The notes under the pieces are model-generated. The model was given only the letters and a program-made list of their open reading frames with translations. It ran no database searches and was not told the origin of the DNA. A stretch of 64,000 bases of DNA, from NCBI RefSeq assembly GCF_032854445.1, contig NC_088301.1, positions 10,414,281 through 10,478,280 of the forward strand, written 5' to 3'. How positions within the stretch are numbered: position 1 is the stretch's first letter; every line of letters starts with the position of its first letter. Source of the DNA: Liolophura sinensis (lineage: Eukaryota > Mollusca > Polyplacophora > Chitonida > Chitonidae). Shown piece by piece: positions 428 through 6,400 of this stretch. Both the position numbers and the translations under genes were made by a program.

Positions 428-3400
428 GTGTACGGTGAGACCTCTTTCGAGCTTGTGCATCAAATGGTTAGCTCTATTCAGTTTGGAGAAGATGATGTCT
501 TCATAGATTTAGGAAGTGGTAAGTCACAGCATTTCTAACCTAAATTGTGGTAATATTAAAGGCTGCTTACTAGTGGAACTAGTACTATTGGTGATGTTTT
601 TTCTACTGAGATAATGGTGGTTAACCTGCTATGATGTTGGTGTTGTTTGTTAACAGTAGTTGATGTTGATGATGTTTGTTAACCTGAGTTAATGATTGTG
701 ATTGTTAATGAATGTGATAGTTAACCAGGGTTAATGATGTTTAAGTTTTGTTAACTTGAGTTAATGCTGGTGATCTTTATTAACCAGAGTTAAGGCCAGT
801 AATGATTTTTAAAGCTGAGTTAATGCTGGTGATGTTGTTAACCCAGGTTAATGTTGGTGATGTTTGTTAACCTGAATTAATGCTGGTGATGTTTGTTAAC
901 CCGAGTTAATATTGGTGATGTTTGTTAACCTGAATTAATGCTGGAGATCTTTGTTAACCAGAGTTAAGGATTGTGATGTTTGTTGTTTGCAGGTGTTGGT
1001 CAGGTGGTTCTCCAGGTAGCAGCCTCCACCAACTGTAAGTTCTGTTACGGGATAGAGAAGGCAGAGTGGCCTGCAAATTATGCTGAGGTAAGCTGGCTTT
1101 GTTCTGCTACTTAGATAATTCTATTGTGAGAGGTAGAACCACAAGTGGTTGATGTGAAATTCTGAAAATTCCGGGTTAAGGAAAAATTTAAAACACTAAC
1201 CAAAGTTTTTACACAGTGGTTAACAGTTGTAATGGCACTCACAAAGCCGGCTACAAAGGGAAGTAAATGTTGTAACCCATGGAAAAGCAGTGCCCTCTGC
1301 TGACTTAAATCAAAAACTAGTCATTCATTATCACTTGTACTGTTATCAAAAATGCTGGTTTTGTTGTTGAAGTACATAAAGGGCACTATTTTCCCATGAG
1401 TTACAAGGTTAGCTTCCCTTTGTGGGAACTGGTGAGCCATATTATGTGTCTCCGAATGTTAGACAGAGCTGTTCATAGGTGTGGAATTTTAACAGTGGAG
1501 GATATATCATTCTGTTTGATCAGTCTTGTCATGGAGGGTTGCGAAATTTTGGCATGTTGTCATTGTTGCAGGTAATGGACAGGGAGTTCCGACGATGGAT
1601 AAAATGGTACGGTAAGACACACACCTCGTACCAAGTCGACAAAGGGGACTTTCTGGAGGATCACATGAAAGAACGCATCAACGGTGCCACGTGAGTCAAT
1701 TTCCTTTCTGCCAGCCCCGTGAGCCAAAGTTTCTGTAATGTCGGTACCACATGGGCAAAGTCTCCTTACTGCCAGCACCATGAGTCACTTACATTATTGC
1801 CATTACCACCAGAGTCAAACTTTCCTTATTATCTTTCCATCTTAAGGGTTAACTGAATTCAAACAATGGTAGAATATATGTATAAATGTAGCTCCTACTT
1901 TTCATCAAAATTTAACATAGTCTATATTTTAGCTGGCCAGAATGTCTTGCATACAAACTATACTGTACGAGCTGAAAAATGAAGTTGGTTCTGATAACAC
2001 GATGTACATTTATCTATACATTTGTAATAAGGTTGTACATTTTGTTTCAGGGTTATATTTGTGAACAACTTTGCATTTGGGCCACAAGTAGATCATCAGG
2101 TAGGACTCATTATGTGTATAGACTCATTATATGCTGAACCTTCGTGAAGCCCACTTGACTCTCCGTAAAAGATTTACTTGTGTTGAAAATTTAGGCTTAT
2201 TTTCAGTTGAGCTTTTGGGTTCATACTGTTGCTAAGCAGAGATTATAATTTTTCTTAAGCACTGTTGAGAGTATTATTTTCTTCTTATGATTAAGCGACT
2301 ACAGATTCTTAAGCATTTCTTGGGCTTGATTTCAGCTTAAGCTACGGTTTGCCAACATGAAGGAAGGTGCTAAAATCGTGTCCTCCAAGGCTTTCTGTCC
2401 GCTTAATTTCCGTATAACTGATAGAAATCTTAGTGGTAAGTCTTCATAATATTGTACAAATGTTCGCTTGGCCTGTTGATTTGTTTTCATGGTTCGATTA
2501 GGAAATGCCAAGGGTTTGGATGATTATTTATTCCAAAAGGATGAGTGTTGTGTATTATTTTAAGTGAAAAAAAACGCTGTTAATTCTTTATTACCTTTCT
2601 TGTTGACCAGAAAAAATGTGACCATATGCATGTCAAGCAAAGACAGAACTCAAACTGCACATACGTTCTCTAAAATGTTAAAATTGCTCATGCTAACAGA
2701 TATAGTAACGAGAGGTCGCGGCAATCCTTTTACAGATATTGGTACAATAATGCGCGTGAATGAGTTATCCCCTCTTCGGGGCGGGGTCTCTTGGACGGGC
2801 AAATCTGTCTCCTATTATCTTCATACTGTAGATAGAAGTTTGGTGAGTAAAGTGCCCTACCCTATTCACTTAAGTTTACTAACAGGTTCTGTTTCTAGTT
2901 GACTTCAATTTCTCCCCTTATACAGTGCTTCACATTCAGTTTGTTTCAGAGAAGACTAAATTTTTGAACCGTTTAAATCTCAGTCAATTATTTGAGAAAT
3001 ACTACAAATATTCTGTCTCAATCGGTTTTATAGTCAAAGTATAATATTTAGGGATGCTTCATCTGCAACCATGTTGTGAATTTGACCTCAAGACAAACCC
3101 TGCTTTGTGCACACCTTTTGGTAAAGCTATCTCTATCTCAGGTCCTCTTTGAAGTTCTTCAGTTCACACCCTTTCATAACTTTAGGTTTAGGTTTTTGGC
3201 TCAAACCCTTTAGAGAAGTTAGCTGCAGCTCAAACCCTTTTGAGAAGCTAACTCCAGCTGAAACAGTTGTGAAGCTGCATGTAGCTCCAGCTTAAACCGT
3301 TTTGTGAAACCAGCTCCATCTGAAACCTTTTTGTGCAGCACTGTAGCCATTATTGAGGAGGGTTGAAGTTCGACTTTTTATGAGTTTCCCAGTTTAACTG

Positions 3401-6400
3401 TAGCCATTTCCTCCAGATATCGGGACAATCATGCACGTCACAGAGTTGTCTCCCCTCAGTGGCGCCGTGTCCTGGACTGGCAAAGCCTTTGCTTATTATC
3501 TACACACCATTGATAGAACTTTGGTGAGTATGCTGAGGGAGGGAGGGAGGGAGGAAATGACAACAACATAGCTTGGGTAATTCTGCAAAAAAGGACAGTG
3601 ATTTTGAAATTGAAATCAAAATATATTGCTCACATCAGTGTTCACATGTTTATTGGAAAGTTTTGTTAAATTTTCGTAATGGTTTCTGCCTTTACTAACA
3701 CTTTTGATAATTGAAAGGTAGTGAATTATACACTTTTGAATTTCTTAGTTTTCTTTCCAATTTATTTGAATTGGAATAATTTGGTTCTTTGTTAAATTTA
3801 TTCCTGGCTGATAATCATCAGGTACTCGTTTCATTTAACAGTCCCTGGGGCTTATTTCTTTTCATCTCATTTCTTGAATGTAAGTAAACTACTTATCTTT
3901 ATGTAAAAAAAAGTTTCTTGCCAGTGACTGGTGGAAATATAACCTATCTAACTGTTAGTGATATTCTTTCATTTTGTTGGATTTGGGTGAAGTGTATTCA
4001 TTTGGGAACAATAATGGAATGCTGAGAGTTGTTTTCTTTACAGCTTGAGAAGTATTTCTTGAGAATGAAAAATCCAAAATTGAGGGTAAGTACAACATTA
4101 AAAGAATGTGTCTCAGAGATTTTTCAAGTTTCAGGTTGAACATTATCTCTAAATGAAACTTCATGTATTCAATTTTGATTCTGCTTGATGTGATCTACCT
4201 ATTTTCCTCCACTTATAAACTTCATTATTGTCAATAACCAATAAGGTCCCAGTTCAAATCCAGCTGTTGCTCTTTCGGCTGTGGCTTTGATTCAGTTTTA
4301 TTGTTAGGTACTTGATAGAGGTTGTTTGTGTACACAGGTACTTTGGTTGGACCGGACTGCAATTATAAGTGAAAAGTCCTTCAGTGTAACATTAAATTAA
4401 AATATATAAATATAAGCAAACTATTCTTGAAATATAAATGAAAGGTGAATTTTATTTGATAAATAAATCAAAGCATTTATAAATTTGAAAAATTATGTGA
4501 GAAGTAGAACTGAGCAGTTCTGTGTAATAACTGATGCTTGACTTTGTCCTGTTTGACGTGGATCGTCGTCATATAACTATAATATTACTAAGTACATGTA
4601 CATACAGATTGTTTGTGGTTAACAGGAGGAGGAATGTAAGCCCAGGAGGGATAGACGAGGCCGTGTTATTAAAGAGTCAGGCAACATTATCTCACAGGTA
4701 AGTGGTCGTGCAATGATTGTAAAAAGTAGGAAAATAAATGGTATAGGAAAAAATGTTTGTGAGTGACCAGAGCCAGGTGTATGTGAGAGAGAAAACAGCC
4801 TGTGCCAACATTACGATAAAATACACTATAATATATCGTTTATGAAAGGTTTTATAACATTAAATTTGAAGGTATCCTAATGGAAAAATATATGTATCCG
4901 CACCAAAAGTTGTATTTTATGGCATTTATTTCTTTTTAAGAATGCACTTTTTGGGTGAAATTTAAGCTCATTTACCATAATTGGGTCAAGGAATTTTATT
5001 ATAAATTAATAACGATGCTGCAGCAATCTATAAACCCACTCGCCATGCTTATTGTGATCAGGATGGAGAGAGTGAGCTGAAGCGTGGCCTGCACCAGGAC
5101 CACACCTACCAGTCAGCTAAGGAGCTGGACTTTGACAGCTGTAGTAACCAGAGCACAGGGGACGAGGGCTCACTGGTGGGACCCACAACTCGCCGCCAGT
5201 GGTCTGAGTGGGTCACCAAGCCCGCCAAGAGCCCCAATTCCTCTGCAGCAGAACAGGAGAATGTTGAAATGGTGAGGGCAGGTCGTGTAGTCGCTGTTGT
5301 GTACTAGGTTTGAGCAGACTTGATACAGCTACAAATTGATGATCAGAGGCATAAGCTGCATACGACAATTACTTCAACATTCCATGTTTCTTGATGTGCC
5401 TGTACATGGAAATCTTAGTTGAATTAGTTGTCAAAGCAGTTAATGCAAATAAAATTTATTAATGTTAAATATGTTCATTTGAGGAAAAAAAAGTAGAAGA
5501 GAAGAAGACATTAAAAGAAATTGCTTGGCTCTTTTTGTGGTATTGACTAATGTGCTGTTGACAAAAGAAATTATTTCTGTGATATTTCAGACGACTGGAC
5601 CGAAGAAAAAGACCAGAAAAACAAACCGGCCTAATAGGATACAGAATGGTGCCATAAGGGAGAGAACCAAGCGTAATTCTGCACAGAACCTACGTAAGAA
5701 CATTATTTCAGTGACATGCTGTGAATCTTTAATCAAAAGCTTGTTCATTTAGTCATACGAGTCACATTTTAATTTAGTCAAATTTATTCGTACGAGTTGG
5801 TAAAACGGCTCTTGTATGTTGTATGTTTTAACTTTATTAGGACCTGGCTTGCAAAATTTTACTTCGGAAAAATGAAAAAAGGTCAATTACATCACTTTTC
5901 AGGTCGTCAACGAAAAGCCAAGCTGACAGCTTCGCGCAGAAAGGCTGCTTTGACTCCTCGTAAAAAGCAGGTTCCGAGTTTGGAATGTTTGAACTTGCTT
6001 CATACTCAGACTGTGCTATCCACATCACCAGGTAAGTCCTAAACCTGTACATGTACCATTCTGTATCATATAGTATAGGCACATTATTGGTAATCATGGT
6101 AATCGTCAGTTATAATACAGCTGATGATTGCTGATTTTAAAAGAATCTTTAGGTTATTCACAGCAGGTTTTTTTTCTCAGTCGGTTTACTGTCTCCTAAA
6201 ATCTCTTGCAGACCAGAGCAGCAAGCTAAACTGTAACGACCGCAGTATGACAGGTTTCTCCAACACATACTACAAATCTGCCACTCATAACCACACCCTG
6301 TCCAGTATGGACACACCTCCAGGACTCCAGGCTCTGTTTGGTGAGTTTACTTTCAGTATGTGAATAGTGTGTCACAGGTACTGTTGATACCCAACGTTTA

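Follow-up and report, generated by a model that had tools for sequence, protein, structure and literature searches.

A duplicated exon for the substrate-lysine loop in the DOT1L gene of the chiton Liolophura sinensis and its predicted mutually exclusive use

DOT1/DOT1L is the sole known enzyme for mono-, di- and trimethylation of H3K79 in yeast or mammals (PMC10098044, excerpt). The loop carrying motif VIII has been proposed as a candidate for product specificity in a paper on kinetoplastid DOT1 (PMC10951340, excerpt). In the genome of a chiton, two adjacent exons of one DOT1L gene encode alternative versions of this loop. Are these exons used one in place of the other, so that a single gene provides two forms of an active site, or is one of them a relic, a regulatory device or an error of the assembly? 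The assembly was originally published under the name Liolophura japonica, together with public RNA-seq from five tissues, namely digestive gland, foot, gill, gonad and heart (PRJNA973839; PMC11068029, excerpt), and the species was renamed Liolophura sinensis by a correction (PMC12441733).

The DOT1L locus and its paired exons

The window, i.e. the whole 64-kb stretch of DNA analysed, spans positions 10,414,281 to 10,478,280 of its contig. It carries a plus-strand DOT1L gene, whose catalytic-domain exons are found from position 428 onwards. The exons and the intron that matter here are the following.

428-518, 993-1087 and 1572-1690, plus strand: catalytic-domain exons with VYGETSF (motif X) and DLGSGVG (motif I)
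2051-2099, plus strand: catalytic-domain exon with NNFAF (motif IV)
2336-2435, plus strand: exon preceding the pair, through human S285 and the first base of codon 286, R282 included
2736-2842, plus strand: exon A, human residues 286-321, with motif VIII and Tyr312
2843-3416, plus strand: intron from A to B, 574 nt, GT-AG
3417-3523, plus strand: exon B, human residues 286-321, with H292, F310 and A311
4044-4085, plus strand: exon following the pair, continues the C-terminal helix and carries TGA 4060 / TGA 4046
4626-4697, 5062-5271, 5591-5693 and 5903-6031, plus strand: downstream DOT1L exons, joined in frame
6212-6340, 6906-6997, 7378-7479 and 7823-7960, plus strand: downstream DOT1L exons, joined in frame

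AG precedes and GT follows each of the 16 exons examined, A and B included. Within the 10 kb that precede the window, three further exons match the N-terminal region of human DOT1L (tblastn with human protein letters, E 9e-8 or better); of the seven matches obtained three were used and four (E 0.41 to 8.2) dropped.

The spliced product matches the DOT1 family PF08123 with E values of 3.9e-68 with exon A and 1.1e-67 with exon B. The corresponding Pfam bit scores (229.5 for A, 228.1 for B and 229.3 for the truncated product containing both) neither discriminate A, B and A+B nor test a functional difference. Compared with DOT1L structures the two isoforms likewise score alike (332.8 and 330.3 bits), and the best-matching solved structures are H3K79-specific methyltransferases, which we take to be human DOT1L. 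Isoform A is 72% identical to human DOT1L over residues 135-335, human numbering being obtained by counting the aligned chain from V135. The alignments reveal the DOT1L hallmarks VYGE, DLGSGxG, NNFAF, VSWT, Y312 and the R282 anchor, the motif list for comparison being that of PMC10951340 (excerpt). Judged by profile and motifs the gene is DOT1L, and H3K79 methylation is predicted for its product.

Genome searches covered 632 contigs with 609,464,459 bases. Using the DOT1 model, 3 of 11 scored candidates matched, all of them exons of the window gene; at E 0.001 this Pfam search has a match at exon A and none at exon B. The exon B protein yielded two matches, B and A (2 candidates scored). Neither the DOT1 model nor the exon B protein detected a second DOT1L locus in these searches, in which weak matches can be missed. 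A scan of the 64-kb window with Rfam gave no family at or above its gathering score. Searches for relatives in collections of prokaryotic and viral contigs gave none.

Exons A and B comprise 107 nt each, with AG before and the identical donor TTG/gtgagt after. The phase is 1 at the start of exon A and 0 at that of exon 4044-4085; B matches A in length and shares its flanking exons. The two copies are identical at 77 of 107 nucleotides and 27 of 36 amino acids. Their 30 nucleotide differences fall 5/4/21 on codon positions 1/2/3, an excess at third positions with a binomial P of 5e-5. A self-comparison of reading frames in the gene region (plus strand, 352 frames of at least 20 amino acids, between a point some 8.4 kb upstream of the window and position 13000 within it) singled out A/B (E 4e-19) as the sole strong pair that does not belong to one minisatellite: among 79 same-gene frame pairs, 74 lie in that minisatellite, one is A/B and four are weak (E 0.002 to 0.009). 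With A only or B only, the frame is open across 15 joined exons from 428 to 7960. Joining both exons leads to TGA at 4060, and omission of both to TGA at 4046. The original prediction of two neighbouring exons that agree in length and phase, have complete splice sites and fit the frame only one at a time is thus confirmed.

The exchanged loop and its splice signals

The 36 residues encoded by either exon correspond to human residues 286-321, including motif VIII (VSWT) and Tyr312. Identity to human amounts to 29 residues for A and 28 for B, and all three sequences are alike at 26. The human residue is found only in A at 292, 310 and 311 and only in B at 317 and 320. Three different residues stand at 294, 300, 302 and 309, and both chiton copies have L321 where human has I. 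A and B are the same at 286-291, 303-308, 312 and 313; V303, S304, W305, T306, G307, K308, Y312 and Y313 are kept in both. From A to B, motif VIII is flanked by the changes R300S, G302A, S309A, V310F and S311A, V310F being the bulkiest change among the motif VIII neighbours, and the remaining changes are R292H, N294T, V317I and S320T. VS in one copy and FA in the other before YY, together with an arginine-to-histidine change, had been noted correctly beforehand; they map to human 310-311 and 292. Since some differences, namely those at 317, 320, 309 and 311, are conservative, functional divergence of A and B may be slight.

Placement of this segment at the lysine-access channel agrees with the literature, where Trp305 of motif VIII is part of the hydrophobic lysine channel (PMC10951340, excerpt) and Tyr312 is among the channel residues (PMC7764450, excerpt). 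DOT1L and Dot1p may owe their distinct product specificities to different conformations of loop GH and the motif VIII loop (PMC10951340, excerpt). Ubiquitin is contacted by residues 284-290 and the helix 320-330, and R282 anchors the enzyme to the acidic patch (PMC10098044, excerpt); in the chiton R282 sits in the exon preceding the pair. Because the catalytic residues 303-308, Y312 and Y313 are kept in both copies, loss of activity is not predicted for either isoform. What is predicted is a tuning change.

The donors of A and B are identical and have a good score. On a small 14-site matrix the acceptor of B scores -6.8, lower than the other 14 in the gene (-5.7 to 15.9), and that of A lies below 10 of the other acceptors scored. 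Such a low score for B could reflect regulation or minor use of the exon, or else an exon that is weakening. The hexamer TGCATG, presumably a candidate Rbfox-type site, occurs upstream of each exon.

2627-2632, plus strand: intronic TGCATG roughly 100 nt upstream of exon A, possibly by chance
3276-3281, plus strand: TGCATG roughly 135 nt upstream of exon B, a lead

Since nine motifs were scanned in the intron search and the hexamer has 72 occurrences in the window, both strands counted, UGCAUG upstream of A and B is a lead only. Double inclusion of exclusive exons can be blocked by a short intron, by a clash of U2 and U12 sites or by competing RNA pairing, and some exclusive pairs depend on regulation plus decay. 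As the intron between A and B measures 574 nt and the sites are ordinary GT-AG, neither short-intron hindrance nor a U2/U12 clash seems to apply. A search for competing intron pairing gave duplex energies 0.5 to 1.2 SD from 30 shuffles, none above them. Regulated choice combined with decay of out-of-frame products would be the most economical enforcement.

Age, constraint and alternative readings

A and B differ at ten of 13 fourfold sites and have a JC distance of 1.13 at third positions. Maximum likelihood estimates a dS of 2.6 and a dN of 0.12, the NG86 dS being undefined. The likeness of the introns around A to those around B does not exceed that of shuffles (in three comparisons, 116 to 191 of 200 shuffles did at least as well). 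Because so many fourfold sites differ and the introns are unrelated, the exon duplication is, by these sequence measures, old.

Constraint was assessed by simulation, the other copy serving as a stand-in for the ancestor. Neutral evolution to 30 differences produced a mean of 18 and a minimum of 11 amino acid changes versus the 9 observed; none of 20,000 runs from either copy had as few as 9. As this joint simulation treats the pair together, a test per copy was added. In a cruder split test, which placed 15 free changes in one copy and looked at nothing but amino acid counts, 31% of runs ended with 9 changes or fewer, so on amino acid counts alone partial decay of one copy is not rejected. 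Since that test did not reject a relic exon, the per-copy test used positions common with human, of which B deviates at 3 of the 29 where A equals human, and A at 2 of the 28 where B does. These positions were fixed by the other copy plus human and exposed to unconstrained substitutions without a stop (4,000 runs each). For B and A respectively, P was 0.0055 and 0.0032 with fifteen such substitutions, 0.04 and 0.01 with twelve, and 0.09 and 0.03 with ten; about 60 are expected per copy since the duplication. Both exons have, on this evidence, been productive for most of their history, and long-term decay of A or B is unlikely; a relic exon as a long-standing state is rejected by the two simulations. 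For approximately the last fifth of that history, as many as some 12 free substitutions in B (P 0.04) or 10 in A (P 0.03) are not strongly disfavoured.

That one exon, most likely B, has lately gone out of use and the gene now makes one isoform strikes us as improbable. The acceptor of B with the weakest score of the gene on the small matrix, V310F and S311A in B, the tolerance for some 10 to 12 unconstrained substitutions (P 0.03 to 0.09) and the outcome of the split test would all fit a recent loss, but neither A nor B shows damage to its frame, splice sites or motif VIII, the identity of B to human (28 of 36) is about that of A (29 of 36), and for both copies the positions common with human reject 15 or more free substitutions. 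Very improbable, in our view, is that B serves chiefly as a poison exon, which joined to A would cause a premature stop and less DOT1L. The TGA at 4060 in the A+B product and the open shifted frame of B leading to it would suit such a role; a poison exon, however, requires no conserved protein frame, and we reject this reading because the frame that B conserves is the productive one, third positions accounting for 21 of 30 differences. An assembly artefact, for example a paralogue that was collapsed or a second haplotype set in the wrong place, might be suspected in an assembly of 14x HiFi with about 1.24% heterozygosity (PMC11068029, excerpt) from a genome reported to be duplicated in part (PMC12005716, excerpt), but is exceedingly improbable and rejected by the divergence of the copies at 28% of sites and their unrelated introns, no second DOT1L locus having come up in the genome searches and the contig being the chromosome-sized scaffold_3 of 60,359,117 bases.

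Very likely, then, A and B are an old tandem duplicate used in a mutually exclusive manner, both enzymes are active, and exchanging one exon for the other would tune the substrate-lysine loop. The observed part of this explanation consists of homology, phases, frame logic, age and constraint. Tandem duplication of one DOT1L exon long ago would have given rise to A and B. Each productive mRNA would take exactly one of them, because both or neither puts a stop in the next exon, and mRNAs with both or neither would be removed by nonsense-mediated decay. Both proteins would be active H3K79 methyltransferases, because motif VIII, Tyr312 and the exon-encoded part of the ubiquitin-contact loop (286-290) are identical; the swap may tune turnover, methylation degree or nucleosome fit, depending on tissue or stage. 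Exclusive use in RNA, decay of the wrong products and the functional difference are what we infer. The original two-isoform reading thereby stands as to locus, exon duplication, frame logic and constraint in both copies, all at the level of sequence, while the isoforms themselves stay predicted.

A further-reaching idea, which we put forward tentatively and regard as rather doubtful, is that exon choice constitutes a genetic switch of DOT1L output by way of a different active loop conformation. F310, A311 and H292 of B might give the substrate-lysine loop another active conformation, and in particular cells this could result in a different H3K79 methylation degree or H2B ubiquitin dependence, in chitons and possibly in other molluscs.

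Relation to known systems

Tandem-duplicated exclusive exons are a known class; Kondrashov and Koonin reportedly described in 2001 how mutually exclusive exons arise by tandem exon duplication. A and B resemble this class in being adjacent, homologous and equal in length and phase, in that one fits the frame and in that both are constrained. They differ in their location in DOT1L, for which no report was found, and in that we infer exclusive use here. In the exclusive exons of the JNK/p38 kinases and in PKM exons 9/10, a swap within the enzyme alters substrate choice or regulation; those enzymes are kinases, whereas the chiton case concerns a nucleosome-specific methyltransferase. Human DOT1L shares motifs X, I, IV and VIII and R282 with the chiton protein, and we know of only one version of its residues 286-321.

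The literature searched, which excluded most subscription papers and preprints, yielded no mutually exclusive isoform of DOT1L, and no such case appears in excerpts of a paper on splicing of epigenetic regulators (PMC1949830) or of one on silkworm DOT1L (PMC4013661). The chiton can probably make two DOT1L versions, with two motif VIII loops kept in an otherwise identical enzyme. Comparison of A and B, nine residues apart, could directly test the proposal on product specificity. If the reading is true, H3K79 methylation would be regulable through splicing of the active site of its own enzyme.

The closest parallel in DOT1 itself is offered by Trypanosoma brucei, where one organism has two DOT1 activities, DOT1A and DOT1B, and small active-site differences set substrate preference (PMC10951340, excerpt); in the chiton two activities are predicted. 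The trypanosome enzymes are encoded by two genes, are ubiquitin-independent and differ by a Ser/Ala switch in motif IV (PMC10951340, excerpt), whereas the chiton has one gene and the difference lies beside motif VIII.

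Repeat and motif content around the DOT1L exons
Much of the length of the DOT1L intron preceding the catalytic-domain exon 993-1087 consists of a single minisatellite:
720-984, GTTAACC-rich minisatellite, 29-bp unit, 9 copies
The candidate Rbfox-type motif TGCATG is found at 2627, about 100 nt upstream of exon A (2736-2842), and at 3276, about 135 nt upstream of its homologue exon B (3417-3523), and a scan of the intron downstream of exon B for this motif revealed none. The placement of TGCATG upstream of both exons may be a chance occurrence.

Repeats elsewhere in the window
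14132-14327, tandem array, 49-bp unit, 4 copies, 100% match
26039-26815, large minisatellite, 48-bp unit
27195-28247, large minisatellite, 32-bp unit
29331-30123, large minisatellite, 79-bp unit
The 100% match between its copies suggests that the 49-bp array is very recent or homogenised. Minisatellites 26039-26815 and 27195-28247 contain long ORFs, which look spurious. Several ORF fragments scattered over 25189-45190 are similar to ORF 25189-25392 (53-83% amino acid identity among the matches listed, about 80 pairs); they are probably parts of a single repeat family.

Contigs with COX1 matches in the assembly
COX1 matches occur on two other contigs of the genome assembly, seven on C99 (locus L007), spaced by about 15.4 to 15.6 kb, and one on C632 (L008). 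C99 appears to consist of mitochondrial genome copies joined head to tail, a concatemer that is probably a product of assembly; the genetic code there reads TGA as Trp.
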